From assembly GCF_001984175.1 (NCBI RefSeq), contig NZ_MTQP01000066.1, positions 310,001 to 374,000 on the forward strand: a DNA stretch of 64,000 bases, written 5' to 3'. Made by a program: the position numbers and the translations under genes. Below are positions 36,556 through 53,361 of this stretch, piece by piece. The notes under the pieces are model-generated. The model saw only the letters and a program-made list of their open reading frames with translations, did no database searches and was not told the DNA's origin. This stretch comes from Saccharothrix sp. ALI-22-I. Lineage in GTDB: Bacteria; Actinomycetota; Actinomycetes; Mycobacteriales; Pseudonocardiaceae. Within the stretch, counting starts at the first letter, position 1. Every line of letters begins with the position of its first letter.

Positions 36556-39500
36556 TTACAACGTCCGAGGTGGGCGCAGGTCCGAGATCACCCGGATAGC
36601 ACCCACGACGTCCCTCAATGCCTCGGCCACGTGAAGACCGGCGACCGGATCGTCGCCATCACTGAGGACATCGAGCAGGATTCGTCGTGCGACGGCCTGG
36701 TGCCGGGGATCGAGGGATCGGAGAGCTTGGGCGACTTCGATCTTGCGTAGGACCTCGGATCCAGGCACCAGCGATTCCAGCGCGTCACCGGCCTGGGCCC
36801 GGTCGGAGAGCCAGCGCGAGGCCAGCAGCCCGGAGGCGAGTGCGCGTTCGTGGTCGTCCGCCGAGAGGTCCGCAGCCTGGCGTTTCAGTACATCGACCGC
36901 GAGATCACCGCGGTCGGCGGAGTCCCGGAGGAGCAACTCGCAGGCACGTCGCCGAGCAGTCGGTTCGGCCGCCTCGTCCGCCGCCACGGCCTCCACCGCC
37001 GACAGGGCCTCGTCGAGGTAGCCGTTGTGCAGCTCGACCAACGCCGTCCACGCCTCTATCCGGTCGACGGCGGAGAAGTCGTCCGAGGTCATCGCCTCCA
37101 GCAGCGCAAGCCCTTCGGCCCGCGCACGCCCGGGCTCCACCATCGCCACGGCGGCGCGGCGACGTTCGCGAATGTCGACGTCCGGGTCGCTCGCCAAGGC
37201 GCGGAGCACGCCGTTCGCCGCGTCGTAGGAAGACCTCGACATGGCCAGCAACGCCTCCGCCGCGTAGCGCCGTTCTGCCCACGGCATCTTGTCGTCGGCG
37301 GCGAACCGCTGAACCAGGTCGACCATCGATTCCCCGGCGACCGGATCGAGCCGCAGGACCGACGCCGCGGCGTCGGTCCGTTCCCAGACCGCGCAGGTCT
37401 CGTCATGGGCGAGCGCGGTCAGCGCCGCCCCGGCATCGGCCAGACCCTGCATGTCGAAGCTGCCCAGCCTCAAGGCGGCGAGACGGCGTTCCCAGCCGCC
37501 CAGATGGGGGTCCTCCGTGAGCACACGCAGGGCACGGGCGGTGGCGCGGCGGCCGTGCGGGGCGATGCGGAGCAAGGCTTCGACTGCCTCCAGTCGCACC
37601 CGCCCGGACGCGGTCGGGTCAGCGACCAGCTCGTTGAGCTCGATGAACGTCTCCCACGCCCGCGTGTCGTCAGCCATGACCAGCTCGACCTTCGCCAGGA
37701 GCGACGGCACGAGGTCGTCCGGTTGCCCGTCCGCCAGGCGCTCCAGCGCGGCCAAACCGGCCGACCGAGGTTCGCCGCCGAGCGCAGTGAGGTGCTGTGC
37801 CGCCCACAGGCGGTTCCAAGCGTCGACCTCCGGCTGGTCGGCGAGATCGCGCAGGGCTGCCACGCCGTGCTCGTACGACTCAGGCCCCAGAGTGGTCAGC
37901 CATTGTGCCGCCTGGCCGCGAAGGGCCGGGTCCGCGCTCTGGTCGGCAGTCACCAGGTTCAGGATGTTGATCAGTTCACGCAGCACGGCGCCCCGCCATC
38001 GGCCCAGCGCCTGGGCGACGCCGATCCGCAAGGCTGCCTGGCTCGAGGGGTGGGCCGCCAGCGTCCCCGCCGACTTCGCCGCCCGAGCAACCCAGTCGCC
38101 ACCGAACCGGGCGAGCTGTTCGCATGCCTGCAACCGGAACCCCGGCGGAGCGGACGCATCAGCCGCGAGAATTTCGAGCGTGGTGGCCACCATGTCGTGC
38201 CGGTGCTTCAGTCGGAGGAGAGCGGCGTGGCGGTGTTCGCGGTGGACGGCCGGATTGGTGGCGATCTTCTCCAACTCGGCCAAGGCGATCGACGTGTATT
38301 CCCCGCCGAGCCGTACGGCGATCTCGGCGAGGTCCAGCCGAGTCACGACGTCGTCGACAGTCGCACCCTGTACAACGGCTGCCTCGGCTTGGTCGCGTTC
38401 GCCCGCACGCACGAGCCTGATCAGGATGTTGACCCGGTCCCGGCGGCTCAAGCGGGGTTCTTCGGCCATTTCCCTCGCGGTGCGCAACGCATCGGCGCGC
38501 TCCTCCTCGCCGAGCGAGCCGAGGGCGGAAACGGTATTCAACCTGTCGTCGGTCGGTCTGGTCGTGTCCCGGGTCTTGGCGTGCAACGTGGCGACGGCTC
38601 GGGCGCGCTCGTCGTCGCCCACGTACGCCATCAACGTGAACACCTCCTGGACGGATATCCAGCCGGGTAGGTCGGCGAGGTTCCACTCGAGCGCCTCGAC
38701 CGCACGGGCCGGAGTCGCCGGGGCATGGATGAACAGCTCTGCGGCATAGGTGTTCAGTTGGGTCTGGGGAGCTTCGAACAGCGGGATGTACGCCGACGCG
38801 ATCTCGTCCCGCAGATCGGGTCGGTGCTCCTGCAGGTAGAACACCATCCACAACTGGTCGTGCGCGGGGATTGTCGGGTCGAAAGCGAGGTGCCGCATTG
38901 CCGACCAACCCGCCTCAGCCCACTTCTCCGGAGACTTGGCCAGTCTCAAGGCGGCGTCGCGTCGCATGTCGTGGGACAACGAGGGATCGGCACACAGATC
39001 GGAGAGCGCGGCGTTCGCGCCGGCGTGGTCGCCGATCCGGATGAGTTCGCGGGCGATGCGCGCTCTGACCGCCCCGGTCAGCGCCGGGGACCGGCCCAGC
39101 CTGGTCAGCACCGCACTGGCCAGTGCTTCGCGACTCGGATCGACGCCGGCCGCGAGGATCGCCGCGCTCGCCTGCCAGTCCGCAGGCACGTCGGCACCAC
39201 TCAGGTGCGAATCGCACCACGCGAGCACCTCGGCGCGCTGCTCGGTGCCCATGTTGGCCAGCAAGCGCCCGGCCCGCAGTCGTTGCGCCGGCGAAGTGGT
39301 CGGCCCCGTGAGGAGTTCGCGAGACGTGGTCACGGCTGCCGGGTAAGCGGCGGTGCCGAGCTTCACCAGCGCCTCGCTCACATCGCACCGGTAGTCTTCG
39401 CCGATCGTCCGGTCGAGGGCGAGAGCGCTCATGGCCTCGACCGCCTTGGGACGGTGTGCCCGGCCCAGTTCGGCGATGGTCTCGGCGGCGCGAAGCCGCC

Positions 39501-42108
39501 AATACGGGTCGACAACGCTGTCGCGGGCGATGGCCTCCAGGCTCTCCACTGCCGACATCCGGTGTCGCTTGCCCAATCTGCCCAGCGCCGACGCGCCGGA
39601 GATGCGGGCGTACTCGGTCAGATGCGGGTTGTCCACCAGACGAACCAGGTGCTGCACGGCCCACTGGTGGCGGCGCGGTTCGATCGAGGGAATGGCTTCG
39701 GCGATTGTCAAGCGGTCGTGGACATCGACCGCGGGGTCGTCGGTGAGTTCGACGAGAACGGCCGCTGCGGGCTCGCGGTGCTGCCGACTCACCTCGGCGA
39801 GCTTGATCGCCGCGTCCACGCGTTCGGAGATGTCGAGCAACGGGCTCTTCACCATGCCCAGCAGCAGCGCGGCGGCGGACTCCAAGTGCGCGCCGCCGAG
39901 CCGGGCGAGGTCGTGCGCCGCGGTCCGCCGCTGGTGCGTGGACGCGGTCGGGTCGGTGGCAAGGACCGTCAAAACTCCGGCCGCCGTCCGCCGTTCGGCT
40001 TGGCCGAACTCGGCCAGCACACCCGCCGCATAAAGTCTGTCCCACGCTGTGTTGGACGATTTGTCCGTCATGCCGACCAGCACCCGGATCGCGGTGTCGC
40101 GGGCGTCATCCCCGAACTTCGCGAGCACCTTCGCCGCCTGACGCCGGTGCCAGGAAGGCCAGGTGTGGTCAGTGGACCGGACGAGCATCGGAACGCCTTC
40201 GCGCCACACCTCGGGCGAGTGCTCTCGCAGCAGGTCGATGACGGTGATCTTCAGTTCGTCGTGGACGGCCGGGTCCTTGAGCAGTGCCGTCAACCACGAG
40301 CGGACGGTCGGCCTGCCGACCAGGCCCCGTAAGTTCCTCAGCCGCGTCGCGAACTCGTCGTCGGCGACGGCTTCCTTCCTCAGCTGTGACAGGTACTCCC
40401 GAACCCGCTCATCGCGGCACGGCGTACCCTGGTTGATCAGTTCGCCCGCCCGTTCCCGCTGGGTCAGGGTGCCGCGCTGGAGCGCTTCGATCACCGCGTC
40501 CCCGTCGCGCAGGTACAGGTAGTGCAGCACGACGCGGGTGTCGTTCTCGTCGCCAAGGGACATGCCGCGGATCAGTTCGTCCCACACCGGTTCGGTCGGG
40601 GTGAACCGCTCGGGCAGCTGCTTGGCCTTCGCCGACGCCGCCAGGTGTTCGGCGAAGGTCTGGTGCAGGAAGCGCAGCCGTCCACCGCTGCGGGTCAGCA
40701 GGCCGGTCTGGCACAGCCACTCCGCCAGGGTGTCCTCCCACTTCGGGCCTCGCCTGGGCGGCAGCAGGTCCTTCTCGGCCAGGTGGTCGCGGGCCAGGTC
40801 GAGCAGCGGGGTCTCCGTGGTCATGTACGACAGGGCCAGGTCCTCCAGCAGCGGCATGCGTTCTTCGCCGATGCGCCACGCCAATTCGTCGTCGCCCGCC
40901 AACGCCGCCAGCGCCTGCGCGTCGGCATCCGCCCGCATCTCCGCGTAGCTCTTGATGTACCGGACGTACAGCTCGTACCGGCTCGCCGGCAGCGGGCTGT
41001 CCGGGTCGGACTGGTGGACGTTCGCCGCGATCGCGGCCAGCAGCGGCACTTCCAGGACGTCGGTCAGGCCGGCCGTCCGGACCTGTTCCAGGAAGTGGTC
41101 CGCCGCGACCACGCCGTCCGTGGTGTCGCGCGGGTTGAACCAGTTGTGCGCGAACCGCTTCAGCGCCTCGGCGTCGAACGGTTGCAGCTCGAAGAAGCCC
41201 GCGCCGGTGAGCCTGGTGGTCTCCCCCAGTTCCAGCGGCCGGGTGGTGATCAGGAAGCGCGTCGAGTTCGTCGACTGGCCCATCCGCCCGGCGATGAGGG
41301 TGATCAGCTGGTCGCGGGCGGTGTTGTCGGGGATCTCGTCCAGCGCGTCGACCACCACCATCCAGCGGTGGCCATCGACGTCCTGGGTGAACAGGGCCGG
41401 GCGCAGTTCGCGATCGGAGAAGCCCGGGTACTCCTCGGTGAGCGACGCCAGCAGCGCCTCGCCCCACGATCTCCCGTCGATGTGCTTGGCCAGCACCCGT
41501 GCCGACAGCAGCAGCGGGATCAACGGCTGGGCGTCGCGCACCTGCTCGACGAGGTCGGCCACGAGTTGCCGGGCCAACGTCGTCTTGCCCAGGCCCGCGC
41601 CGCCCTCGATCACCAGGTGGTCGTTCTGCTCGAACACGTCCTGGAACGGCTGGGCCAGCGTCGAGGCCAGCCGGGTGCCCTCGACCCACCCCACTTCCTC
41701 GGGTAACTCCTCCCGGGGCCACCGCACTTCCGCCGGTGAGCTGACGCTCTGCCGGACGTACAGCGTCGACAGGGACAGCGGTTGGCGGGAGGGCAGCAGG
41801 TACGGCAGTTCCCGGCACACCATCGCCATCCGGTCCAGCAGGTCGACGAGCGCTGGAGGCAGGGCCGGGAGCTTGAAGTTGCGCGCTTCGGCGTACAGCG
41901 TCGCCAGCTCCGGCGCGTCCGGGAACTCGGCCGCGATCCGGGCCGCGTCCTTGACCGAGGGCAGACGCCTGCCCGCGAGGATCTCCGACAGGTGGGACGT
42001 CGAGACGAACACCGCCTTCGCGAAATCCGCCTGAGTGCCGGGGCGGTTCTTCACGAGTGGGCGCAGGAGGTGTGCGTACGCGGCGGCGGGGTCCTGCGGG
42101 TCGCTCAC
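36556..42108 (-). CDS. Giant STAND NTPase: XRE-type HTH, NACHT, long HEAT-repeat tail
   Basis: 1850 residues from the GTG at 42108 (site GGGAGG; the frame upstream to 42798 is not protein-like). Residues 10-62 are an XRE-type helix-turn-helix (TQADFAKAVFVSTSHLSEIL, AGRRLP). NACHT follows with Walker A GGAGLGKTT (about 169-177), Walker B VVVDALDEIP (about 251-260), sensor FLITTRP, and a winged-helix region to about 560. The rest is a long array of regular HEAT-like repeats of about 37 residues (pattern RxxAAxxLAxLG, then AxxxLxxLAxDP). Such proteins act as sensors that oligomerise on binding a trigger; several Avs-type STAND proteins defend against phage. No effector nuclease, TIR or protease domain is visible, so an effector may be separate. 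The neighbours are a dead usp gene and a small divergent gene. Confidence 0.88.
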   Translation of the reverse strand: MSDPQDPAAAYAHLLRPLVKNRPGTQADFAKAVFVSTSHLSEILAGRRLPSVKDAARIAAEFPDAPELATLYAEARNFKLPALPPALVDLLDRMAMVCRELPYLLPSRQPLSLSTLYVRQSVSSPAEVRWPREELPEEVGWVEGTRLASTLAQPFQDVFEQNDHLVIEGGAGLGKTTLARQLVADLVEQVRDAQPLIPLLLSARVLAKHIDGRSWGEALLASLTEEYPGFSDRELRPALFTQDVDGHRWMVVVDALDEIPDNTARDQLITLIAGRMGQSTNSTRFLITTRPLELGETTRLTGAGFFELQPFDAEALKRFAHNWFNPRDTTDGVVAADHFLEQVRTAGLTDVLEVPLLAAIAANVHQSDPDSPLPASRYELYVRYIKSYAEMRADADAQALAALAGDDELAWRIGEERMPLLEDLALSYMTTETPLLDLARDHLAEKDLLPPRRGPKWEDTLAEWLCQTGLLTRSGGRLRFLHQTFAEHLAASAKAKQLPERFTPTEPVWDELIRGMSLGDENDTRVVLHYLYLRDGDAVIEALQRGTLTQRERAGELINQGTPCRDERVREYLSQLRKEAVADDEFATRLRNLRGLVGRPTVRSWLTALLKDPAVHDELKITVIDLLREHSPEVWREGVPMLVRSTDHTWPSWHRRQAAKVLAKFGDDARDTAIRVLVGMTDKSSNTAWDRLYAAGVLAEFGQAERRTAAGVLTVLATDPTASTHQRRTAAHDLARLGGAHLESAAALLLGMVKSPLLDISERVDAAIKLAEVSRQHREPAAAVLVELTDDPAVDVHDRLTIAEAIPSIEPRRHQWAVQHLVRLVDNPHLTEYARISGASALGRLGKRHRMSAVESLEAIARDSVVDPYWRLRAAETIAELGRAHRPKAVEAMSALALDRTIGEDYRCDVSEALVKLGTAAYPAAVTTSRELLTGPTTSPAQRLRAGRLLANMGTEQRAEVLAWCDSHLSGADVPADWQASAAILAAGVDPSREALASAVLTRLGRSPALTGAVRARIARELIRIGDHAGANAALSDLCADPSLSHDMRRDAALRLAKSPEKWAEAGWSAMRHLAFDPTIPAHDQLWMVFYLQEHRPDLRDEIASAYIPLFEAPQTQLNTYAAELFIHAPATPARAVEALEWNLADLPGWISVQEVFTLMAYVGDDERARAVATLHAKTRDTTRPTDDRLNTVSALGSLGEEERADALRTAREMAEEPRLSRRDRVNILIRLVRAGERDQAEAAVVQGATVDDVVTRLDLAEIAVRLGGEYTSIALAELEKIATNPAVHREHRHAALLRLKHRHDMVATTLEILAADASAPPGFRLQACEQLARFGGDWVARAAKSAGTLAAHPSSQAALRIGVAQALGRWRGAVLRELINILNLVTADQSADPALRGQAAQWLTTLGPESYEHGVAALRDLADQPEVDAWNRLWAAQHLTALGGEPRSAGLAALERLADGQPDDLVPSLLAKVELVMADDTRAWETFIELNELVADPTASGRVRLEAVEALLRIAPHGRRATARALRVLTEDPHLGGWERRLAALRLGSFDMQGLADAGAALTALAHDETCAVWERTDAAASVLRLDPVAGESMVDLVQRFAADDKMPWAERRYAAEALLAMSRSSYDAANGVLRALASDPDVDIRERRRAAVAMVEPGRARAEGLALLEAMTSDDFSAVDRIEAWTALVELHNGYLDEALSAVEAVAADEAAEPTARRRACELLLRDSADRGDLAVDVLKRQAADLSADDHERALASGLLASRWLSDRAQAGDALESLVPGSEVLRKIEVAQALRSLDPRHQAVARRILLDVLSDGDDPVAGLHVAEALRDVVGAIRVISDLRPPRTL

Positions 42109-42449: not shown

Positions 42450-42494
42450 GGGACGCCAGAAGCGGGGACGTCAGAAGCCGGGACGTCAGAAGGC
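42450..42494. repeat. Three tandem 15-bp repeats
   Basis: Copies GGGACGCCAGAAGCG, GGGACGTCAGAAGCC and GGGACGTCAGAAGGC at 42450, 42465 and 42480. The last copy includes the stop codon of the RsbW-like gene, so the array probably arose by duplication of that gene's end. Confidence 0.85.
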
Positions 42495-42875
42495 GACTTC
42501 GCCCCACACGGTCTTGTAGCCGACTTGGGGGTCCACGCCCCAGCGTGACGACAACCGGTTGACCAGGAGCAGTCCGCGGTGGTGCAGCCCGCGTCCGCCC
42601 AGTTTGCCGAGCACGGGCAGCCGTTCCGGACTGGCGTCGTCCACCTCCACCCGGACCAGTCCACCCGGTGGATGGCTCAGCCGCAGCCGGCGGGGTTCCA
42701 GGGCGTGCTCGAAGGCGTTGGTCAGCAGCGCGTCGGTGATCAGCAGCAGGTCGAGCAGCTGTGACTTGTCCAGGACCGACGCGTTCGCGGTGATCCACTT
42801 CCGGGCGCGGCTCATCGGTGGGACGGTGTCCCCCAAGTCGAAATCGACCTGGTCAGGGGACCGTTCGAGGTCCAC
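42486..42875 (-). CDS. RsbW/SpoIIAB-like HATPase (anti-sigma-type kinase)
   Basis: 129 residues from a GTG at 42875 (GGAAGG site; another GTG at 42881 is possible). The GHKL fold shows an N-box-like ITDALLTNAFEHA, a strand VRVEVDDASPERLPV and the G-box-like GGRGLHHRGLLLVNRLSSRW. The family phosphorylates anti-sigma antagonists and binds sigma factors in stress signalling. No sigma factor or antagonist lies next to it; the SpoIIE-type phosphatase at 50995-53361 is the only obvious functional relative in the window. Confidence 0.75.
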   Translation of the reverse strand: MDLERSPDQVDFDLGDTVPPMSRARKWITANASVLDKSQLLDLLLITDALLTNAFEHALEPRRLRLSHPPGGLVRVEVDDASPERLPVLGKLGGRGLHHRGLLLVNRLSSRWGVDPQVGYKTVWGEVAF

Positions 42876-43001
42876 GGGCACGTGCCTTCCAGCAAATCGG
42901 TAAGCCTGTTGTTTCAGAGCGCAAAGGCCCGGTTGCCCGATCCGGCGTGCCGCCAAACGGCGTCACCGACATCGTTATCGGTCCGTCGTCACCCGTCCGG
43001 G

Positions 43002-43263: not shown

Positions 43264-44787
43264 GTGGCGGCTGGACAGCGACGTTCGTCGGAGGACGAAC
43301 AGTGGCGCGTGCGCCTCGTCGACACCGAGGGCCGCACTCACGGTGCCGGAGTACAGCTCGGGCAGCGGCACGTGCTGACCTGCGCCCACGTCGTGTCCGA
43401 CATCGGTGACGACGTCGTCGTGCGAGCGGGTTCCGCCACCGCGCGGGCGGTCGTTCGCCGGTCCGTCCCCACGCTGCCGGACGGTCGCGGGGACGTCGCC
43501 CTGCTCGAACTGGATCGCGATCTGCCCGGTGACGGGGCCGTGCTGCACCGGGCGGCGGTGAGCTGGGACCGAGCCGTGCACGTGTTCGGGTTCCCGGAAG
43601 AGCTGAGCGACGGCGTCTACGCGCGCACGGTGACCGCGGGTCGGGCCGGTCCCGGGTCGGAGTGGATCCAGATGAACGCCCGGTCCAGCGTCGAGCAACG
43701 GGTGCGTCGCGGGTTCAGCGGCGGCGGGGTCGTCGACGACCAGACCGGTGCCGTGCTGGGCATCGTGGTCAGCGCGTACAAGGACAAGACGCAGGCGTCG
43801 GCGAACCTGTCGTGGATGATCCCGGTGGAGACGATCATCTCGCACCTGCCCGACGTGACCCGGTGGGTGACCGGGGAGTCCGCCGCCGACGAGGTGTTCA
43901 GCGGCAGGGCGTCACCCGAGGTCTCGCGGGTCGGTGTGGCCAAGGCGCTGGCGGACTGGCTGGCCCGGAGTGGTCGCGGTGATGTCGTGATCACGGTGGT
44001 GGGTGCGGACCGGCGGGAGTTGTACCGGCTGGTGGCGTTGGCCGACCGGGAGTCGCGGTTGGTCGCCCCCGACGCGCCCGACGGCACGGTGCCGGCGGTC
44101 GGCAGCATCGACCTGGCGGTGGACGCCTCGGGCCGGACCGCGGACGAGGTGGCGCTGCGGATCGTGCGCCGGGTGGGGATCGCCGTGGACGAGCGGGTCG
44201 GGTCGAGTGCGCTGGTCCGGTCGGGCATCCCGCCGATGACGGTCGCGGTGGACGGCGTGGACCAGGCCGTGGACCCCGACGAGTTGCTGAACGGGGTGCT
44301 GCGACCACTCGCGGAGCACGGGACCCGGCTCATCCTCGGGTTCCGGCACCCGGAGTCGCCCAGCCTGACCGCGGCCAGGGCGTGGGAGGTCGACCAGCGC
44401 CTGGACGACCTGAGCCGGGTGATCGTGGCGCACGGCGGCGACCGGGCGATGCGGCTGAGGCAGCGGGTGACGGAGCTGCGGATCATCGCCAAGCGCCTGG
44501 GTCCCGCGGCGGTGCGGCCACAGTTGGAGAAGTTCGCCCGCGAGGTGGCCGGTATCGAGGCGGACGCCGGTCCGGACGACGTGCCGCGGGAACTCCACGA
44601 ACAGGAGAAACTGCTCGACGTCTACCTGGCCAAGGCGGTGAAGCGCCGGATCGCCGAGCGCCCCGACCTCGTGGCTCTGCACCGCACCGCGACCGGGTTG
44701 CTGCGGCGAGAGCCACCCGACCTGGACGCCGTGAAGGACACGGTCCTGGCGTACGCGCGTGCGGTGCGGCGAGAGGAGCGGAAGTGA
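43264..44787 (+). CDS. Cytoplasmic trypsin-like serine protease with C-terminal unknown domain
   Basis: 507 residues from the GTG at 43264. Residues 10-215 are a trypsin-like fold: His42 in VLTCAHVVSDIGDD, Asp78 in GRGDVALLELDR, Ser152 in RRGFSGGGVVDDQTG. There is no signal peptide or membrane segment, so it acts in the cytoplasm. Residues 235-385 form an alpha/beta region (VVITVVGADRRELYRLVALA, RLILGFRHPESP). Residues 395-507 are helical and charged (RVTELRIIAKRLGP, HEQEKLLDVYLAKAVKRRI). It is the first gene of a five-gene unit and overlaps the PknG-like kinase by GTGA. Confidence 0.85.
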   Translation: MAAGQRRSSEDEQWRVRLVDTEGRTHGAGVQLGQRHVLTCAHVVSDIGDDVVVRAGSATARAVVRRSVPTLPDGRGDVALLELDRDLPGDGAVLHRAAVSWDRAVHVFGFPEELSDGVYARTVTAGRAGPGSEWIQMNARSSVEQRVRRGFSGGGVVDDQTGAVLGIVVSAYKDKTQASANLSWMIPVETIISHLPDVTRWVTGESAADEVFSGRASPEVSRVGVAKALADWLARSGRGDVVITVVGADRRELYRLVALADRESRLVAPDAPDGTVPAVGSIDLAVDASGRTADEVALRIVRRVGIAVDERVGSSALVRSGIPPMTVAVDGVDQAVDPDELLNGVLRPLAEHGTRLILGFRHPESPSLTAARAWEVDQRLDDLSRVIVAHGGDRAMRLRQRVTELRIIAKRLGPAAVRPQLEKFAREVAGIEADAGPDDVPRELHEQEKLLDVYLAKAVKRRIAERPDLVALHRTATGLLRREPPDLDAVKDTVLAYARAVRREERK

Positions 44788-46997
44788 CCCCGTGCAACCG
44801 CCCCGGCTGCGGGGGAACCGTGGAGGAGACGGGCTTCTGCGACACGTGCGACCGGCGGCCGCTGGACGACGACCAGGTGGACCCCGGCAGCACCCGGCAG
44901 GGCGACGCGTTGTCGTTGCCCGTCTTCGAGTTCCCCGATCCGTCCAGCCGCATCCGCACCGACGCGGAGGTGCCGGAGGACAGTCGCCGGTGCGGCTGGT
45001 GCGAGGCCCCGGTCGGTCGCAGCTACAAAGGAACGCCGGCGCTCGCCGAGGGGATCTGCCGCCGGTGCGGTCAGCCGTACTCGTTCCTCCCGACGCTGCA
45101 CGCGGGCACCGTGGTGGCCGACCAGTACGAGGTGATGGGGGTTTTCGCCCGCGGCGGCCTCGGTTGGGTCTACCTCGCGCGCGACACGCACCTGGACGGC
45201 AACCTGGTCGTGCTCAAGGGCCTGATCGACACGCGTGACACGGGACTGGCCGTGGCCGAACGCCGTGCGTTGACCACCATGGACCACAAGAACATCGTGC
45301 GGATCTTCAACTTCGTGTCGCACCCCGACGCCCGGACCGGCGAGTCGCGCGACTACATCGTGATGGAGTACGTCGACGGCCTGGAGCTCAGCGAGGTCCA
45401 GAAGTGGTCCGCGCTCGGGCGTGAGCCGCTGCGGGTGGAGCACATCCTCACGTGCGTCAGGTACGTGCTGGAGGCGTTCGAGTACCTGCACGGCCGCGGG
45501 TTCCTCTACTGCGACATGAAGCCGGCGAACGTGATCATCCGGCCGGGCAACCGCGGCGAGCACGAGAGCCGGGTGAAGCTGATCGACCTCGGCGCGGTGC
45601 GCCGGATCGGTGACCGCGCCTCGCCGAGGATCGGCACGGACGGGTACGAGGTGTCCGAGCGGGAGATCATCGAGCGCGGGTTGACCGTGCGGTCCGACCT
45701 GCACACCGTCGGCGTGATGCTGGAACGGCTGTTCCACGCCAGCGTGGACTGGGGCGAGGTCTATCCGCCCGCGAACGCCTCCACTCCCCTCGCGATCGGG
45801 CTGGAGTCGTTCGACCGGCTCTGCAAGCGTGCGGCCCACGCGGACGCCGACCGGCGGTTCGCCTCGGCCCGGCAGATGCTCGACCAGCTCGACGGGGTAC
45901 TCCGGGAGTTCGCCTCGCTGCGCGACGGCGTCGCCCGCCCCGAGCCGTCCACCACGTTCACGCCCACGGCGGCGTTGCTCGACGACGGGCTCGGCTCGGT
46001 GCCGCCGCTGGCCCGCTGGACCCGGCCGCAGGAGTACCGCGGCACCGGCGAGTCGTTGCCGGACGGACGCCCGACACCCCGCGCCGTCGCCGTCGGGCTG
46101 CCGGTGCCGCGGGTCGATCCCGATGACGCCGCCGTCGACGTCGTGACGGCCGCGGGCGCGTCGGAACCGCGCCGGCTGCTCGACAAGCTGTCCACGGCCG
46201 GGCTCGACACCGCCGAAGTCCGGTTCGCCCGCTGCCGGGCGCACCTGGAACTGGCCGAACTCGACCAAGCCGCGGACGACCTGCGTGCGGCCGAGGACCA
46301 GGCACCCGACGACTGGAAGGTCGCGTGGCACAAAGGTCTGCTCGCGCTGGCCCGGGACGAGGTCGACACGGCGCGGGCCGAGTTCGACGCCGTCTACGAC
46401 GCCCTGCCCGGTGAGGACGCGCCGAAACTCGCGCTCGGGTTCTGCGCCGAGCACGCCGGTGATCAGGTCCGCGCGGAGAAGCTCTACGAAGCGGCGTGGC
46501 GTCGCGACCGGTCGCAGGGCAGCGCCGCTTTCGGGTTGGCCCGGATCAGGCTCGGTCGACGCGACCGGGCCGGTGCCGTGGCGTTGCTGGACGAGGTGCC
46601 GAAGGTGTCCCGGCACTACGACGCCGCCGCGGTCGCGGCCGTGGTCGTCCTCTCCGGCCGGCTCGGGTCCGATGTGGCCGAAGAGGGAGAACCCGGTCCG
46701 GCCGATCTGCGCGAGGCCGCGGAGCGGTTGTCCGGGCTCTACCTGGACGGCGGCGCTCCGGCCGGGCCCGCCCGTGACCGGATGACCGCGATCCTGCGGG
46801 AAGCCGCGTCCCATGTGGACGATCAGCCGGCCGTGCTGCCGTCGGGGGCGTTGTTCGGTGATGGGCCGACCACGAAGGAGCTGCACAGGAAGCTTGCCCA
46901 GTCGTACCGGGCGCTGGCCGGGCAGGCGGACGACGCCGACGACCTCGGTGTCCTGATCGACCTGGCCAACAAGACTCGTCCGAGGACGTGGGTATGA
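44784..46997 (+). CDS. PknG-like Ser/Thr protein kinase with zinc ribbons and TPR domain
   Basis: 737 residues. Residues 4-22 are a small zinc ribbon (CNRPGCGG, CDTC); residues 70-95 hold two CxxC pairs (CGWC, CRRCG) as in the rubredoxin-like domain of PknG. The kinase (about 115-370) has glycine loop ARGGLGWVYLA, Lys145 in VVLKGL, the catalytic loop YCDMKPANV (Asp244) and LIDLGAV in place of DFG, the last two as in PknG. The C-terminal half is TPR-like (LAELDQAADDLRAAEDQAPD, WHKGLLALARDEV). PknG senses amino-acid supply and controls 2-oxoglutarate use through GarA/OdhI. Overlaps of 4 bases link it to both neighbours. Confidence 0.9.
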   Translation: MTPCNRPGCGGTVEETGFCDTCDRRPLDDDQVDPGSTRQGDALSLPVFEFPDPSSRIRTDAEVPEDSRRCGWCEAPVGRSYKGTPALAEGICRRCGQPYSFLPTLHAGTVVADQYEVMGVFARGGLGWVYLARDTHLDGNLVVLKGLIDTRDTGLAVAERRALTTMDHKNIVRIFNFVSHPDARTGESRDYIVMEYVDGLELSEVQKWSALGREPLRVEHILTCVRYVLEAFEYLHGRGFLYCDMKPANVIIRPGNRGEHESRVKLIDLGAVRRIGDRASPRIGTDGYEVSEREIIERGLTVRSDLHTVGVMLERLFHASVDWGEVYPPANASTPLAIGLESFDRLCKRAAHADADRRFASARQMLDQLDGVLREFASLRDGVARPEPSTTFTPTAALLDDGLGSVPPLARWTRPQEYRGTGESLPDGRPTPRAVAVGLPVPRVDPDDAAVDVVTAAGASEPRRLLDKLSTAGLDTAEVRFARCRAHLELAELDQAADDLRAAEDQAPDDWKVAWHKGLLALARDEVDTARAEFDAVYDALPGEDAPKLALGFCAEHAGDQVRAEKLYEAAWRRDRSQGSAAFGLARIRLGRRDRAGAVALLDEVPKVSRHYDAAAVAAVVVLSGRLGSDVAEEGEPGPADLREAAERLSGLYLDGGAPAGPARDRMTAILREAASHVDDQPAVLPSGALFGDGPTTKELHRKLAQSYRALAGQADDADDLGVLIDLANKTRPRTWV

Positions 46998-48409
46998 CAT
47001 CGCGAAAGCAGCCGCGGATCACCCTGGCGGTGGAGCAGAACGAATACCTGTCACCGGGTGACACGGAGATGCACGCCGTGCTGACCGTCACGGCGGAAGG
47101 ACTCGGCGGCAGCACGGGGCCCGGTGTGGCCGAGGCCGCCGAGGTGATCGCCATCGACTGCTCCAGCTCCATGCTCTACCCGCCGACGAAGATCACCTCG
47201 GCCCGTCAGGCCGCCGCCGCCGCGATCGACGCGTTGCGCGACGGGGTGTTCTTCGCCGTGATCGCGGGCACCGACACCGCGCGCGAGGTGTACCCGACAG
47301 GCGGGCGGCTGGTCAGGGCCACCGCCGAGTCCAGGGCCGCGGCGAAGCGAGCGGTTCGCGTGCTGCGGCCCGACGGCGGCACCGCCATCGGTGCGTGGTT
47401 ACGGCTGGCGGACCGGCTGCTGGCCGCCCACCCGTCGGCGATCCGGCACGTCATGCTGCTCACCGACGGGCGCAACGAGCACGAGACCAGCAAGCAGCTG
47501 GACGCCGTGCTCGCGGCCTGCGAAGGACGCTTCACCTGCGACGCGCGCGGTGTCGGCGCGGACTGGTCGCCCCAGGAGCTGCTGCGCATCGTGTCCGTGC
47601 TGCACGGGTCCGCCGACGCCGTCCGGGCCGGTGAGGAGCTGGTGGCCGACTTCACCGCGATGATGCGCACGGCGATGGACAAGGTCCTGCCGGACATCCG
47701 GCTCCGGATTCGGACGGGGCAGTCCGCGCGTCTCCGGTTCGTCAAGCAGGTGCTGCCCACGCGCGCGGACCTGACCGAGTTCGGCACCGTGATCGACCCG
47801 CGCACGACGGTGTTCTCGACCGGCGCGTGGGGAGAGGAGAGCCGGGACTTCCACGTGTGCCTGGACGTCACGCGGGGTGGCGCGCCGCTGAACGAGGACG
47901 TCCGGGCCGCCCGGGTGGACCTGGAAGTCGACCACCACGGCACGGGCGGGCCCGCGGTGATCCTGGTGCGGTGGACCAACGAGCTCAAGCTCTCCAGCGT
48001 GATCCACCCGCTGGTCGCCCACTACAGCAAGCAGACCGACCTCGGCACGGCGATGATGGCCGGCTACGAGGCCTACGACGCCGGAAACGTGCGGCACGCC
48101 GAGGAGCAGTGGGGACGTGCCGTCGCACTCGCGTCCGGGCTGGGCAACGCCGAGGTCCTGCGTCGGCTGGGACGGTTGGTGGACGTCGTCGGCGAACCGG
48201 CGGACGGCGTGGTGCGGGTCAAGTCGTCGCTCTCGCCGCACGACATCCTCAGCAGCGCCATGGTGTCCGTGACGTCCAGTCGCGCCCCGCAGCCCGAGGT
48301 CGAGGTCGAGGAAGGGCCGGACGTGGTCTGCCCGAACTGCGAGCTGGTGTGGCCGCCCGGATCGGCGTTCTGCGAGGGCTGCCGCCAACCCATCGAGGCG
48401 GCACCGTGA
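46994..48409 (+). CDS. vWA-domain protein with C-terminal zinc ribbon
   Basis: 471 residues. The von Willebrand A domain (about 40-240) has a MIDAS in VIAIDCSSSM (DxSxS), the Thr region GGTAIGAWLRLADRLLA and the Asp in MLLTDGRNEHETS. A beta-rich middle part (SARLRFVKQVLPTRADLTEF) and a helical section follow. The end is a zinc ribbon, CPNCELVWPPGSAFCEGC, like that at the kinase N-terminus. It starts in the ATGA overlap with the kinase and ends in the GTGA overlap with the membrane gene. It may be a scaffold that binds metal and kinase products. No signal peptide. Confidence 0.88.
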   Translation: MTSRKQPRITLAVEQNEYLSPGDTEMHAVLTVTAEGLGGSTGPGVAEAAEVIAIDCSSSMLYPPTKITSARQAAAAAIDALRDGVFFAVIAGTDTAREVYPTGGRLVRATAESRAAAKRAVRVLRPDGGTAIGAWLRLADRLLAAHPSAIRHVMLLTDGRNEHETSKQLDAVLAACEGRFTCDARGVGADWSPQELLRIVSVLHGSADAVRAGEELVADFTAMMRTAMDKVLPDIRLRIRTGQSARLRFVKQVLPTRADLTEFGTVIDPRTTVFSTGAWGEESRDFHVCLDVTRGGAPLNEDVRAARVDLEVDHHGTGGPAVILVRWTNELKLSSVIHPLVAHYSKQTDLGTAMMAGYEAYDAGNVRHAEEQWGRAVALASGLGNAEVLRRLGRLVDVVGEPADGVVRVKSSLSPHDILSSAMVSVTSSRAPQPEVEVEEGPDVVCPNCELVWPPGSAFCEGCRQPIEAAP

Positions 48410-49572
48410 CCACTCGACGCCCCACCACGCGGGCCGCGCTGCTCGCGCGACTGCACCGCGTGCGCCGCCTGCTGCGGGCGCGTTCCAAGACCCGGCTGAC
48501 GCTGTGGTCGCTGAACGCGAGTCTGCTCGTGACGACCGCGCTGGTGGCGGCGGTCTCGTGGTACGCCTTCGACGACGTACACGACACCATCGACACGGTG
48601 GACACCCGGACGTCCCGGGCCCTGCTGGAGGCGTCGGCGGCGAAGTCGGCGCTCGTGGAGGCCGACCTGTTGGCCATCACCAGCTTCCGCACCGGTGAAG
48701 CGCTGCTCTCCGGGCCGGGTGACCGCTACGGGAACCGGATCGCGACGGCGAGCCAGAGCCTCGCCCAGGTCGCCGAGGACAACGTGGCCGGCGAGGACGG
48801 CAGCAAGCAGATCCAGGTGGTGGAAGGACTGCTGGCCTCCTACACCGATTGGATCGGGCAGGCGAACGCGCACCACCGGCAGAACAGCGGCCTGGCCACG
48901 ATCGACCTCTGGTACGCCTCCCGACTGCTGCACACGCAGGACAGCGGCGTGCTGGCGCAGCTGGAGAACCTGGTGAAGGTGCAGCAGGACGCGATGGACG
49001 TCCAGCTGGCGGGCAGCTCGACGTCACCGGGGCGGATCGCGTTGCTGACCGTGCCGGTGGGCGTGCTGCTCGCCCTGCTCGTCGGCGCACAAGTGTTCCA
49101 CGCCAAGCGGTTCCGCCGGGTGTTGAACGTGCCGCTCGTGCTGGCCACGCTGGTTCTCGCGGGCGTGTGCGCGGTCGTCGGGTACGGCCTGGTCGCGCAG
49201 CACCGGGTCGAGGTCGCGGCCGATGACCTGCGGGCGCTCGTCGGCACGTGGCAGGAGCGGACGTCCGCCACGGCGGCCGAGGGGCAACAGGCGCTCAGCG
49301 ACCTGGTGACCGGTGAGTGCCGGGGCGCGGACGGCGGGTGCGGCGAAACGGTCACCCGGTTCATCACCGAACTCCGCGCGGCCGACCCCGGGACCAGGCC
49401 CTCCGATCTGGAACTGACCGGGGGTGTGCAGCGGGTCAACTCCCAGATCGCCGTGGCGAACGGCACCGCGGACCTGGAGCTCCTGATCCCGGCCGGCGCC
49501 CTGCTGATCGCGGTGCTGGTCTGGCTCGGGTTCCTGCCCCGTCTAGAGGAGTACAGGCACAGGCGACGATGA
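48406..49572 (+). CDS. Four-TM membrane protein with GlnX topology
   Basis: 388 residues. Membrane segments at about 36-56, 211-231, 243-264 and 357-378. Two large outer regions lie between TM1-TM2 (about 150 residues, helical, with VDTRTSRALLEASAAKSALV and VEGLLASYTDWIGQANAH) and TM3-TM4 (about 90 residues, with paired Cys in TGECRGADGGCGE). The basic cytoplasmic head is RARSKTR. This is the layout of mycobacterial GlnX, which passes a nutrient signal from the GlnH binding protein to PknG. The helical outer region also resembles four-helix-bundle sensors of chemoreceptors. The operon position supports the same role here. Confidence 0.8.
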   Translation: MTTRRPTTRAALLARLHRVRRLLRARSKTRLTLWSLNASLLVTTALVAAVSWYAFDDVHDTIDTVDTRTSRALLEASAAKSALVEADLLAITSFRTGEALLSGPGDRYGNRIATASQSLAQVAEDNVAGEDGSKQIQVVEGLLASYTDWIGQANAHHRQNSGLATIDLWYASRLLHTQDSGVLAQLENLVKVQQDAMDVQLAGSSTSPGRIALLTVPVGVLLALLVGAQVFHAKRFRRVLNVPLVLATLVLAGVCAVVGYGLVAQHRVEVAADDLRALVGTWQERTSATAAEGQQALSDLVTGECRGADGGCGETVTRFITELRAADPGTRPSDLELTGGVQRVNSQIAVANGTADLELLIPAGALLIAVLVWLGFLPRLEEYRHRRR

Positions 49573-50879
49573 ACAGGACCACGGCACTACTGCTCACCGC
49601 GGTGCTCGCGGCCGCCGTGCCCGCGTGCGCCGGCACCGGTTCCCGGCCCACCGTCTCGATCCTCGCCTCCTGGACCGGCGCGGAGCAGACGAGCTTCGAG
49701 GCGGTGCTGGCCGCGTTCGAGGCGAAGGAGAACATCGAGGTCGACTACAACGGCACCCGCGCGGTCGGCCAGGTGCTGCGATCCGAGGTGCAGCAAGGCA
49801 CCCCGCCCGATCTGGCGGTGCTGCCGAGTCCCGGCGAACTGGCCACCTACGCGCACGACGGCTACCTGCACGCGCTCGACGACGTGATCGGCCCGCAGAC
49901 CGACGAGTACAGCAGCCAGTGGGTGGACCTGGAACGTGCCGCCACCGATCGCCGTTACGGCGTCGCGGTGAAGGCCGACCTCAAGGGCACCATCTGGTAC
50001 AACCCGAAACGCCTGCCGGGGCCGAAGCCGACCACCGAGGCGGAGCTGGCGACGTTCGTCGGCGATCTGGCGGGTGGCGGTGCGGCGCCGTGGTGCATGG
50101 GGATGGGCGCCACGCCGGACTCGGGTTGGCCGGGGACCGACTGGGTGGAGAACATCCTGTTGCAGCAGGCCGGGCCCGACGCGTACCGGGCGTGGGCGGG
50201 CGGGGAGCTGGCCTGGACGTCGGAGCCCGTTCGGCGGGCGTGGCTGACGTGGGGGCAGCTCGCGGGGCCGACCACGGTGCGGGGCGGGCCGACGTCGGTG
50301 CTGCTCACCGACTTCGCGGATGCCGGCCGCGGGCTCTTCGCCCAGCCGGCCGGCTGCCTGCTGGACCACCAGGCCACCTTCGCCATGAGCATGTACCAGG
50401 GTTACGACGGGTACGCGGTCACCGCCGGATCGGACTTCGACTTCTTCCCGTTCCCCTCGTCCACCGGCGGCGATCGGGCGTGGGAGGTCTCGGCCGACCT
50501 GGCGGCGATGTTCAACCGCACACCGGAGTCGGAGAAGCTGATCAGGTTCCTCGCCTCTGCGCAGGCCCAGGAGATCTGGCCCGACAACGGCGGGGCGTTC
50601 TCGGTGAACCGCAAGGTGACCAAGGCGGTGTACGCCGACGAGGTGAGCAAGCGGATCGCCGAGACGCTGACGTCACCGGGCACGTTCTGCTTCGACGCGT
50701 CGGACCTCATGCCGGGATCGATGCGCACCGCGTTCTACCGGGCGGCACTGGAGTACGTCAACGACCCGACCCGGCTGGACACCGTGCTGGTGCAACTCGA
50801 AACCGTCCGGTCCAACATCGGGAAAAGCGAATGGCTGGACTTCCCCTGCGGCGGTCGAGTCACGGTCGGTCCCAGATGA
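49569..50879 (+). CDS. Lipoprotein extracellular solute-binding protein (family 1 type)
   Basis: 436 residues. Lipoprotein signal with lipobox VPAC (Cys20). The mature part is an ABC-type solute-binding fold of family 1 (carbohydrate/oligomer type): VSILASWTGAEQTSFEAVLA, VEVQQGTPPDLAVLPSPGEL-like region, GVAVKADLKGTIWYNPKRLP, and the late WEVSADLAAMFNRTPESEKL. There are no ABC permease or ATPase genes nearby, so it is a sensor protein and not a transporter part. It is coupled by ATGA to the GlnX-like gene, like GlnH to GlnX, but of another solute family. Confidence 0.88.
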   Translation: MNRTTALLLTAVLAAAVPACAGTGSRPTVSILASWTGAEQTSFEAVLAAFEAKENIEVDYNGTRAVGQVLRSEVQQGTPPDLAVLPSPGELATYAHDGYLHALDDVIGPQTDEYSSQWVDLERAATDRRYGVAVKADLKGTIWYNPKRLPGPKPTTEAELATFVGDLAGGGAAPWCMGMGATPDSGWPGTDWVENILLQQAGPDAYRAWAGGELAWTSEPVRRAWLTWGQLAGPTTVRGGPTSVLLTDFADAGRGLFAQPAGCLLDHQATFAMSMYQGYDGYAVTAGSDFDFFPFPSSTGGDRAWEVSADLAAMFNRTPESEKLIRFLASAQAQEIWPDNGGAFSVNRKVTKAVYADEVSKRIAETLTSPGTFCFDASDLMPGSMRTAFYRAALEYVNDPTRLDTVLVQLETVRSNIGKSEWLDFPCGGRVTVGPR

Positions 50880-50994: not shown

Positions 50995-53361
50995 TCACGC
51001 GCTGATGGTGGCGGCCACGATGCACGTGTCGTCCAGCGGGGTGGCGGGGACCAGGCGCGAGGTCAGCGCCCCCGGCATCTTCGCCGGGTCGAGGTCCTCG
51101 ATGAACCCGCGGATCTCCTCCACCAGGCGTTCCAGGTCGTCACCGCCGTCGCTGCTGGACGGTCGGCGCTCGATCAGGCCGTCGGTGAACAGCAGCAGCG
51201 TGTCACCGGGTGCCAGGACCGTGCGCGCCGTCGCGTACACCGCCCCCGGTATGGCACCCAGGATGGGCCCCGAGGGCCGGTCGAGCCGGTGCACCTCGTG
51301 CGACCGCAGCAGCAGCGGCGCGGGGTGCCCGGCCTGCGCCCACGACAGCCTGCGGGTCGTCGGCTCGTACCTGCCGACCAGCGCCGAGGCCAGCGTGACG
51401 TCGTCTCCCCCGGTCAGCATCCGGTTGAGCACGTCGAGCACACCGGCCGGGTCGGGGTTGGTGAGCGCGGCCCCGGTGAGCGCGTACCGCAGCTTCGCCA
51501 TCGCCGCCGCGGTCGCCAGGCCGTGGCCCGCCGCGTCGCCGATCGCGAGCAGCGTGCTGCCGTCGTCGATCGGGAACGCGTGGTACCAGTCGCCGCCGAC
51601 CTCCGCCCACTGCTCGGCGGCCAGGTACCGCACCGCCACCCGCATCCCCGGCAGCTCCAGCGGCTGGCTCGGCAACGGCAGCACGGCGGAACGCAACTGG
51701 TTGGCCACTTGGTGCTCCTGCGCGAACTGCTCGCTGAGGTCGAACATCCGCTTCTCGGCCCGCCGCGTCGCGGTCACGTCCTGCAACACCACGTCCAGCC
51801 GGATGGCCTGGCCCTGCACGTCCAGCACCGGCTCGCCGATGAACCGGGTGAACCGGACCTGCTCACCGGCCCACAGGCGCAGCTCGGAGTCGGTGCGCTC
51901 GCCATCCTCCAGCATCCGCCGCACGGCGTTCTGGAGGATCGGCAGGTCCTCGTCCACGACGGACGCCTGGATCTCCTCCAACGACATGGGGCCGAGTGCC
52001 GGGTCGCGGTCGAAGATCACGTAGAGCTGCTCGGACCAGTCGATCTCGTTGGTCACCAGGTTCCACTCGCCCCAGCCGATGTTGCCCAGGCGCTGGACGC
52101 TGCGCAGCCGCTCCAGCTGCAACGGGTCCTCGTGCTCGTGCCAGGCCACGATCAGGCCGTCGCCGAACTTGCCGATGGTCACCGTGAACCGGCCGCGCTG
52201 CGGCAGACCGGGGCTGACCTCCTCGTAGTCGAATATGCTGACGACCTCCCGGACCCCGGTGCGCAGCACGCGGTGGTACGCCGCCCACAGTTCGGTCCCC
52301 GCGATCGTCGGGTAGCTGGCGAGGATGCTCTGCCCGACCAGTTGCCGGTACCGGCGGCCGCCGAAGTCGACCGCGTCGGGGCTGGCGGCCTCGAACCGGA
52401 AGTCCACCACCTCCCCGTTCTCGTCGTGGACCGCGCCTTGCAGCGTCACCGAGCCGGGCAGCACGTCCAGCAGGTGCTGGGCCCAGAGGGTCCAGTTGCG
52501 GCTCTGCCCGGGGCCTCCGGTGCTCAGCAGCTCCATGAGCGTGAATCCCGCGGCTCGTGCGAGCACCTCCAGCTCCCACTGCTCCTCGGACGAGAAGTCG
52601 TGGTTCTCGTTCCAGAACAGCCCGATGACACCGGTGACGCGCGTCTGGTCCCGGAACGGGAGCCAGGCACGCGAGCACCACTCCGTGTCGGGGTCGCCGA
52701 TCAGGACGTACCGCCGACGGGCCTCCTCCCGGTCGGGCAGCCAGTGCGGCAGGCCGCTGCGCACCGAGGTGAGGATGCCCGTCATGAGCTGCAACGGCAC
52801 CCGCTGCCACTCCAGCCGCACCTTCGTGGGCACGTTCGCCGCGGCCTCCAGCCGCATCCCGCCGTCGGGTTCCACCAGGTAGATCAGCACACCGTCGCAG
52901 CCGACGTGCTCACGGAGGAGTTCGGCCAGCTCATCGGGGTCGGCCGCGGTGCCGATCGCGGCCAGCGCCACCGGCTGCGGCGTGCGGTCGCCCACCGGGG
53001 CCGGTGAGGGCTTCGGGGTGTCGGCCCGCCGCTCGCCGCGGGTCTGGTCGCCGCGGGTCTGGTAGAAGGGGCCGTCGGCGGGCACGTGGCGCGGGCCGGG
53101 CGGCGGCGCCGGCACGCCGAGCACGGCCGCCGCGATGGCGGCCAGGTCGCTGCCCGTCGCCTGGGCGAGCCGCACCATGTCCTCGAACGCCTCGTCGGGA
53201 CGGCACGACAGTCGCTCGGCGAGCATCCCCTTGGCCTGTTCGACCACGGCCTGCCTGCGCGCAGCCGCTCTCAGCCGGTCGATCTCGTCGCGCTGCCGGG
53301 CGACGAGGTCGGCCAGCGCAGAGCCGCTCGGATCCCGCTGGACTGCCATCGCGTCCAGCAT
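50995..53361 (-). CDS. Multidomain PP2C phosphatase: ANTAR, GAF, PAS, SpoIIE
   Basis: 788 residues from the ATG at 53361 (alternative 53349). Order of domains: ANTAR RNA-binding-like helices (RRQAVVEQAKGMLAERL), GAF (about 130-310, GVLIYLVEPDGGMRLEAAAN), two PAS-like regions (to about 555, including IGWGEWNLVTNEIDWSEQLY), and a SpoIIE/RsbU phosphatase (GGDWYHAFPIDDGSTLLAIG, DAAGHGLATAAAMAKLRYAL, LLLFTDGLIERR). It is soluble. Such enzymes dephosphorylate anti-sigma antagonists in stress responses and can bind RNA through ANTAR. It is convergent with the solute-binding gene. The intervening 116 bp is AT-rich with a GTGATT/AATCAC inverted pair. Confidence 0.88.
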   Translation of the reverse strand: MLDAMAVQRDPSGSALADLVARQRDEIDRLRAAARRQAVVEQAKGMLAERLSCRPDEAFEDMVRLAQATGSDLAAIAAAVLGVPAPPPGPRHVPADGPFYQTRGDQTRGERRADTPKPSPAPVGDRTPQPVALAAIGTAADPDELAELLREHVGCDGVLIYLVEPDGGMRLEAAANVPTKVRLEWQRVPLQLMTGILTSVRSGLPHWLPDREEARRRYVLIGDPDTEWCSRAWLPFRDQTRVTGVIGLFWNENHDFSSEEQWELEVLARAAGFTLMELLSTGGPGQSRNWTLWAQHLLDVLPGSVTLQGAVHDENGEVVDFRFEAASPDAVDFGGRRYRQLVGQSILASYPTIAGTELWAAYHRVLRTGVREVVSIFDYEEVSPGLPQRGRFTVTIGKFGDGLIVAWHEHEDPLQLERLRSVQRLGNIGWGEWNLVTNEIDWSEQLYVIFDRDPALGPMSLEEIQASVVDEDLPILQNAVRRMLEDGERTDSELRLWAGEQVRFTRFIGEPVLDVQGQAIRLDVVLQDVTATRRAEKRMFDLSEQFAQEHQVANQLRSAVLPLPSQPLELPGMRVAVRYLAAEQWAEVGGDWYHAFPIDDGSTLLAIGDAAGHGLATAAAMAKLRYALTGAALTNPDPAGVLDVLNRMLTGGDDVTLASALVGRYEPTTRRLSWAQAGHPAPLLLRSHEVHRLDRPSGPILGAIPGAVYATARTVLAPGDTLLLFTDGLIERRPSSSDGGDDLERLVEEIRGFIEDLDPAKMPGALTSRLVPATPLDDTCIVAATISA

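Follow-up and report, generated by a model that had tools for sequence, protein, structure and literature searches.

PknG signalling has so far been known for reversible metabolic control, which raises the question of what a PknG-type kinase would do in an operon of Saccharothrix sp. ALI-22-I that opens with a trypsin-like protease. The window analysed here is a stretch of 64,000 nucleotides (assembly GCF_001984175.1, contig NZ_MTQP01000066.1, positions 310,001 to 374,000), and the 10.3 Mb genome assembly harbors a second PknG locus, labelled L035, with which the operon can be compared directly. The features of the operon, in window coordinates, are as follows.

43264..44787, + strand: protease gene (trypsin-like head, putative P-loop-less NTPase-like middle, coiled coil, tail; Pfam and structure models)
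43264..43830, + strand: trypsin-like head with His42/Asp77/Ser152
43867..44350 (approximate limits), + strand: putative NTPase-like alpha/beta middle domain without P-loop, with the Walker-B-like AVDGVDQA
44548..44784, + strand: tail domain common to the protease and protein X of the standard pknG operon
44784..46997, + strand: PknG-type kinase (N-terminal Cys motif, rubredoxin-like, kinase and TPR parts; Pfam)
46994..48409, + strand: vWA protein with intact MIDAS (Pfam, residue check)
48329..48382, + strand: CxxC...CxxC zinc-ribbon-like C-terminal segment of the vWA protein
48406..49572, + strand: membrane protein related to GlnX (predicted TM segments: three strong, one weaker)
49569..50879, + strand: SBP_bac_1 lipoprotein-like solute-binding protein (SBP; Cys20 in AVPAC; Pfam)

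Organization and components of the operon

The five open reading frames are joined by four 4-base GTGA or ATGA overlaps (44784, 46994, 48406 and 49569), and their coordinates together with the Pfam and NCBIfam domains confirm the five-gene operon that had been proposed from the letters alone. Such tight overlap is common, not universal, among the operons of relatives: in distinct trypsin-form operons a gap of -4 or -1 base was counted at 25 of 67 protease-kinase and 13 of 66 kinase-vWA junctions, and at 35/48 junctions between vWA and membrane protein and 35/49 between membrane protein and SBP. Divergently upstream lie genes for an 1850-aa protein that matches NACHT and, weakly, HTH (36559-42108, minus strand) and for a protein with a weak HATPase match (42489-42881, minus strand), and the operon is followed by a SpoIIE-GAF-ANTAR-PAS protein (50998-53361, minus strand). 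PADLOC returned domain-level matches only for the five proteins, placing the protease near RT-Protease XI (39 bits) and the kinase near PD-T4-6 models (up to 92 bits) and giving none for the membrane protein, the vWA protein and the SBP.

The kinase scores 208.5 bits with PknG_TPR, 81 with Pkinase and 52.3 with PknG_rubred (Pfam), and it aligns to solved PknG from the rubredoxin-like part through the end of the TPR part at 348 bits, which gives it the rubredoxin-like, kinase and C-terminal TPR order of PknG. The membrane protein reaches 119.7 bits (E 1.7e-34) against the GlnX family NF058618, a significant score below the curated cut-off of 250, by which it is a relative of GlnX and not a member of the family. 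The PknG and GlnX kinship claimed in the sequence-only reading is thus borne out. The vWA protein is recognized by VWA_3 at 52.9 bits.

The SBP belongs to SBP_bac_1 (64.2 bits, Pfam) and did not qualify as a GlnH-type SBP_bac_3 protein, in agreement with the earlier assignment to a family other than that of GlnH; the genome's own GlnH is of the SBP_bac_3 type. It adjoins the membrane protein or is fused to it in 56 of 57 loci, and an ABC-permease EAA-like pattern, admittedly a crude one, was found at 0/57 SBP loci. Neither the operon's proteins nor the three flanking ones included an ABC permease by Pfam. The proposal that the SBP acts as a sensor without an ABC permease is supported by this adjacency or fusion and by the missing EAA pattern. 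A lipobox-like Cys is present in 40 of 53 unfused SBPs, as read from automatic starts. The nearest solved SBPs, AcbH and NagB2, are matched weakly (E about 4e-4), which hints at sugars as possible ligands.

Comparison with the standard pknG locus

The L035 locus consists of GlnX, GlnH (SBP_bac_3), a 357-aa protein X, PknG, PP2C, vWA and FHA, and its kinase shares 41% identity with the window kinase over 722 columns. Kinase, vWA protein, GlnX kin and tail domain are common to both loci. The differences are that X at L035 has no protease head and is accompanied by PP2C and FHA, whereas the window operon possesses no separate X, PP2C or FHA gene and carries the protease and an SBP of another family. 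The vWA protein had been regarded as an added output, which did not hold: a vWA gene belongs to this genome's standard locus and lies no more than eight genes from 53 of the 54 coil-type tail genes, so the vWA protein is rejected as a new part. By gene content, the new element with respect to the standard locus is the protease. The sequence-only reading had overlooked its X-type tail, the lack of PP2C and FHA around it and the existence of counterparts with caspase heads.

Architecture of the protease

The head scores 45 bits with Trypsin_2 (Pfam cut-off 27.6) and carries a catalytic triad, whose intactness had been noticed correctly, as had His42 and Ser152, while its acidic member is Asp77 instead of Asp78. 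In the predicted structure of the whole protein (mean pLDDT 80.3) this head models as trypsin/HtrA. The C-terminal part was modelled separately (mean pLDDT 89.2), and a fold search with it gave no match with E<=0.001; AAA+ clamp loaders made up the majority of the 50 best matches, with E from 1.6e-3 to 0.06 and large rmsd, which is supportive only of an NTPase-like reading. This assignment of the middle domain is therefore a weak one, drawn from the fold matches (best E 1.6e-3) and a sequence pattern: one pattern picks out a Walker-B-like stretch in 29 of the 69 C-terminal parts of trypsin forms, and a P-loop pattern is absent from all 69.

Sequence search returned no solved relative of the protease, and a profile of its C-terminal part gave weak matches, mostly to coiled coils. 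The X profile matched all 19 proteases of the first set over the C-terminal part (E 3.5e-34 to 3.1e-5), with scores that have a high composition bias from the coil, and comparison of the protease tail with the X tail gave an hhalign probability of 98.7%. On account of this tail homology, the protease can be described as an X-like protein extended by a trypsin head and an NTPase-like middle that lacks a P-loop.

Heads and neighbours of tail proteins

Across the phylum, the tail alignment matched 13 of 396 genomes, counting the own one; within the family it matched 88 of 249, representing 20 of 46 genera, and from more than 100 family-search matches listed, 60 were hand-picked for genus spread. 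The survey set comprised the window and 166 loci (L035-L200), and its 149 tail proteins were reduced to 137 distinct ones by dropping repeats of the last 200 residues. These were divided by their heads into 69 with trypsin and NTPase-like parts, 54 with coil only, eight recognized by the caspase profile, three NTPase-like ones without trypsin and three unclassified by profile. Two of the latter (L153 and L156) were read as decayed caspase-like from further upstream, which leaves L134 as the one unclassified protein and brings the caspase-like heads to ten, namely six intact-looking ones with GHG and the Cys of DCC (L067, L068, L172, L175, L176, L186) and four decayed ones that have lost the GHG His (L149, L153, L156, L160).

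A kinase lies within eight genes of 67/69 trypsin forms, L189 and L120 being the exceptions, and of all 54 coil forms. Over the same distance, neither PP2C nor FHA was found at any of the 69 trypsin forms, in contrast with 53/54 and 51/54 coil forms, respectively; a six-frame recheck of the fetched stretches gave 0/69 for each at trypsin forms and 52/54 for each at coil forms. The intact-looking caspase operons resemble the trypsin type, with PP2C in 0/6 and FHA in 1/6 (L172), the decayed-caspase operons possess both genes in 4/4, and the three trypsin-less operons have neither. Trypco1 was detected at 31 of 69 distinct trypsin loci (coil 0/54, caspase 0/8) and EACC1 at 4/8 caspase loci only; one protein of each checked by Pfam scored 96.6 and 98.1 bits, respectively, above the cut-offs. 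Trypco1 is absent at the window locus.

Loss of catalytic residues in close relatives had been named beforehand as evidence against the sequence-only reading, and the survey found these residues kept in most. The triad is present as called in 62 of 69 trypsin forms and in 65 of 69 after three more (L037, L089, L103) were read from the upstream frame, the exceptions being L038 (Ser replaced by His), L199 (Asp replaced by Asn), L189 (neither His nor Ser retained) and L180 (N-terminus out of frame). In the kinases of protease-type operons, the VLK Lys, the catalytic Asp, the Asn and the DLG Asp are retained in 67/67 and the catalytic-loop Lys in 66/67, and the vWA MIDAS is retained in 66/66 trypsin operons. 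The zinc-ribbon-like end of the vWA protein, likewise pointed out earlier, proved typical of protease-type operons, occurring in 49/66 trypsin, 0/52 coil, 0/8 caspase and 1/3 trypsin-less operons. The three trypsin-less tail proteins (L157:9441-10493, L171:9233-10297, L183:9213-10355) stand in protease-type operons that keep the remaining parts; judged by these and by the altered forms L038, L199 and L180, proteolysis is dispensable in some operons. A tail protease without a kinase operon nearby, at L189:9619-11220, is the one that has lost the His and Ser of the triad.

Recurrence of the gene order

Scanning of named genomes with the protease alignment yielded 54 named loci, of which 32 display the full five-gene order (26 plain and six with added Trypco1). 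A further four, all of the Actinacidiphila loci, retain the order except that a single 750-787-aa fusion protein, with five predicted TM segments, takes the place of membrane protein and SBP; the remainder are six protease-kinase-vWA-Trypco1 loci and 12 other or incomplete ones. The full order was also scored in 31 of 112 other stretches, window included, and in one more with the membrane-protein gene split into two calls; the 112 include many stretches retrieved because of PknG operons of other types, and some that coincide with named loci. The order sought in other actinomycetes thus recurs, beyond chance, in genera including Saccharothrix, Actinosynnema, Lentzea, Actinokineospora, Kutzneria, Kibdelosporangium, Amycolatopsis, Virgisporangium, Streptantibioticus and Streptomyces. 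In a separate vWA search of 60 genomes, the own one among them, 25 matched, and 40 stretches were mapped; together with the window they contained ten window-type loci and nine in which protease-kinase-vWA faces a GlnH-GlnX pair, the rest of the 40 being standard or other PknG loci. One locus, L100, recorded as Rhodococcus rhodnii, is probably misnamed, and no claim beyond the window's family is therefore based on it.

The sensor genes vary as well. GlnH/GlnX genes lie near 13 of the 69 trypsin operons, and L080 (Actinokineospora) alone carries both sensor pairs, as membrane protein-SBP1-Trypco1 and a convergent GlnH-GlnX. An unrooted kinase tree was calculated from 73 of 134 kinases after thinning, in which 38 trypsin-operon kinases and two trypsin-less ones fall on the same side of a 100% branch, and inside the other side the kinases linked to caspases, whether intact or decayed, are united in a single supported group (96; eight rows). 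Inside the trypsin side, the members with GlnH/GlnX sensors belong to a supported set of eight rows that also includes the SBP1-type L187 and L083 as well as L080; this grouping of both sensor types with the operon that has both indicates that sensors were exchanged by way of an intermediate. The protease folds found on this tail are of two unrelated kinds, which implies at least two separate fusions. Since the trypsin-operon kinases sit on one side of one branch, the large counts are not independent, and the trypsin gain and the absence of PP2C and FHA may be one event, with the caspase a second.

Proposed mechanism and alternative explanations

The operon is probably a variant of the GlnH-GlnX-PknG relay with a proteolytic output, and the best reading is that a tethered protease took the place of the relay's phosphatase/FHA branch through at least two separate fusions. 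At the level of sequence, this is founded on the parts and their conservation, the shared tail, the exchange of heads, the absence of PP2C and FHA and the fusion of SBP and membrane protein; complex formation, activation order, ligand and substrate we infer. The lipid-anchored family-1 SBP would bind an outside ligand and dock on the four-helix membrane protein, which would signal to the TPR part of the kinase. Signalling of GlnX onto the PknG TPR, and docking of FHA substrates on the N-terminal segment, have been proposed in the accessible text of PMC6069109 and PMC8546545. Because tail, kinase and vWA protein are shared and the heads are exchangeable, the tail can be taken as the docking part and the head as the output. 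The X-type tail would accordingly hold the protease at the complex, with the vWA protein as an assembly partner, kinase signalling would switch on or release the trypsin head, and cleavage would stand in for the FHA/PP2C branch of the standard locus. Several observations run counter to this model: L157, L171 and L183 lack the trypsin head and L038, L199 and L180 are altered, L189 and L120 have no kinase called, the caspase operon L172 keeps FHA, the counts are not independent, the window has no Trypco1, and the X-profile scores are coil-biased.

A simpler explanation would be an ordinary second PknG metabolic switch, in which a different nutrient leads to phosphorylation of GarA/OdhI, the protease only trimming members of the complex or acting on unrelated proteins. 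It gains from the match to solved PknG over the rubredoxin, kinase and TPR parts and from GarA itself, which was found in 59 of 60 genomes, own included. Against it, the own GarA/OdhI homologue (L201:1282-1743, G000:C54) reads PERTSVFRADFL, with Arg at the position of the PknG acceptor Thr, known as T14 of OdhI and T21 of GarA in the available text of PMC2784874. The same Arg occurs in 29 of 34 readable cases, own included (50 were looked at, 16 being unreadable); the adjacent Thr is retained and is still a possible phosphorylation site. The assay of kinase action on GarA/OdhI suggested earlier is doubtful for this reason. Moreover, the N-terminal arm motif GxGhVxVP is present in 0/67 protease-type kinases versus 25/53 of the coil type, and the Ser/Thr share of the arm has a median of 0.146 (35 long enough) in the former versus 0.312 (27) in the latter, both comparisons being based on automatic start calls. 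With the FHA gene also absent from trypsin loci, the missing arm motif, the low Ser/Thr share and the GarA Arg favour a proteolytic output, and the metabolic switch is considered unlikely. The Arg-bearing GarA coexists with a standard pknG locus in the same genome.

The tethered protease could also serve a conflict (phage or rival defence) system gated by an extracellular ligand, in which it kills or stalls the cell. The modules would then have been exchanged with known actinomycete conflict systems, and as a role this explanation overlaps with that of the relay protease. The Trypco1 and EACC1 partners, the exchange of trypsin and caspase and the P-loop-less NTPase-like middle all speak for it, such modules being described for conflict systems in the accessible parts of PMC7159879 and PMC10907252. 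It is held to be a tentative possibility, as the five proteins and three flanking ones scanned contained no MoxR, VMAP or DNA-targeting part and the sensor parts resemble nutrient sensors. Quite improbable is a protease that acts as a scaffold, with its fold mattering rather than catalysis; trypsin-less and active-site-altered members do occur and the standard X is coil only, but the triad is kept in 65 of the 69 proteases. On a wider and somewhat speculative view, PknG operons could be a plug-in platform, in which a sensor-kinase-vWA core and a docking tail accept swappable heads (coil, trypsin with Trypco1, caspase with EACC1) and sensors (GlnH/GlnX, SBP1 with the four-helix protein) and form an outside-triggered proteolytic death or conflict switch. 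If true, this would turn a metabolic relay into such a switch.

Relation to known systems

The GlnH-GlnX-PknG-OdhI/GarA pathway, as presented in the accessible text of PMC6069109, PMC9769921 and PMC8546545, resembles the operon in the PknG domain order, the GlnX-related protein, the lipoprotein SBP and the grouping in one operon. Unlike that pathway, the window locus has SBP_bac_1 rather than SBP_bac_3, an X-tailed protease, neither PP2C nor FHA, and a genome whose GarA has no acceptor Thr. The VMAP ternary and EACC1-caspase systems (PMC7159879, available text) share the vWA protein with the operon and, with its relatives, protease heads (trypsin or caspase) accompanied by Trypco1 or EACC1, two proteins named there as partners of such proteases in conflict systems; here, instead of MoxR or VMAP, a sensor relay and a PknG kinase are found. 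Membership of the VMAP ternary systems was ruled out, given that Pfam detected no MoxR or VMAP in the five and three flanking proteins, and the words PknG and GlnX are absent from the main text of PMC7159879. The SBP-linked or fused STPKs SCO1468, SGR_4432 and MSMEG_1200, known here by their description in PMC6069109, likewise tie an SBP genetically to a Ser/Thr kinase, with no protease or vWA part mentioned in the text available. Other mixes of kinase domains are shown in the accessible part of PMC1262709. A study of xylan by SirexAA-E, judged from its accessible text, is irrelevant to the operon.

No description of a PknG-protease operon was found among the literature matches listed, which covered text apart from figures and mostly from outside subscription journals, and a vWA gene beside pknG may already appear in the STRING neighbourhood figure of PMC6069109. 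The operon is new as a variant of the PknG relay and has modules in common with conflict systems. The results suggest that many soil actinomycetes contain a PknG copy whose operon supplies a separate outside sensor and, in place of the phosphatase, a protease, as in a sensing pathway that may work through protein cleavage. Such a protease-bearing side branch would connect regulated proteolysis with nutrient-type sensing of the outside, and a metabolic kinase with modules known from the conflict systems of actinomycetes, and the tail would be a candidate adaptor, now testable, for how PknG reaches its partners.

Four Trypco1 matches lie elsewhere in the own genome (G000:C65, C57, C48 and C34; L257-L260), one of them in a long open frame. 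The trypsin-less tail protein of L157 contains the segment GNVVQAGRVAGDVHVH (GNVVQAG), which may resemble RHIM/BASS3-like amyloid motifs. BASS3 is named RHIM-related in the portion of the literature available.
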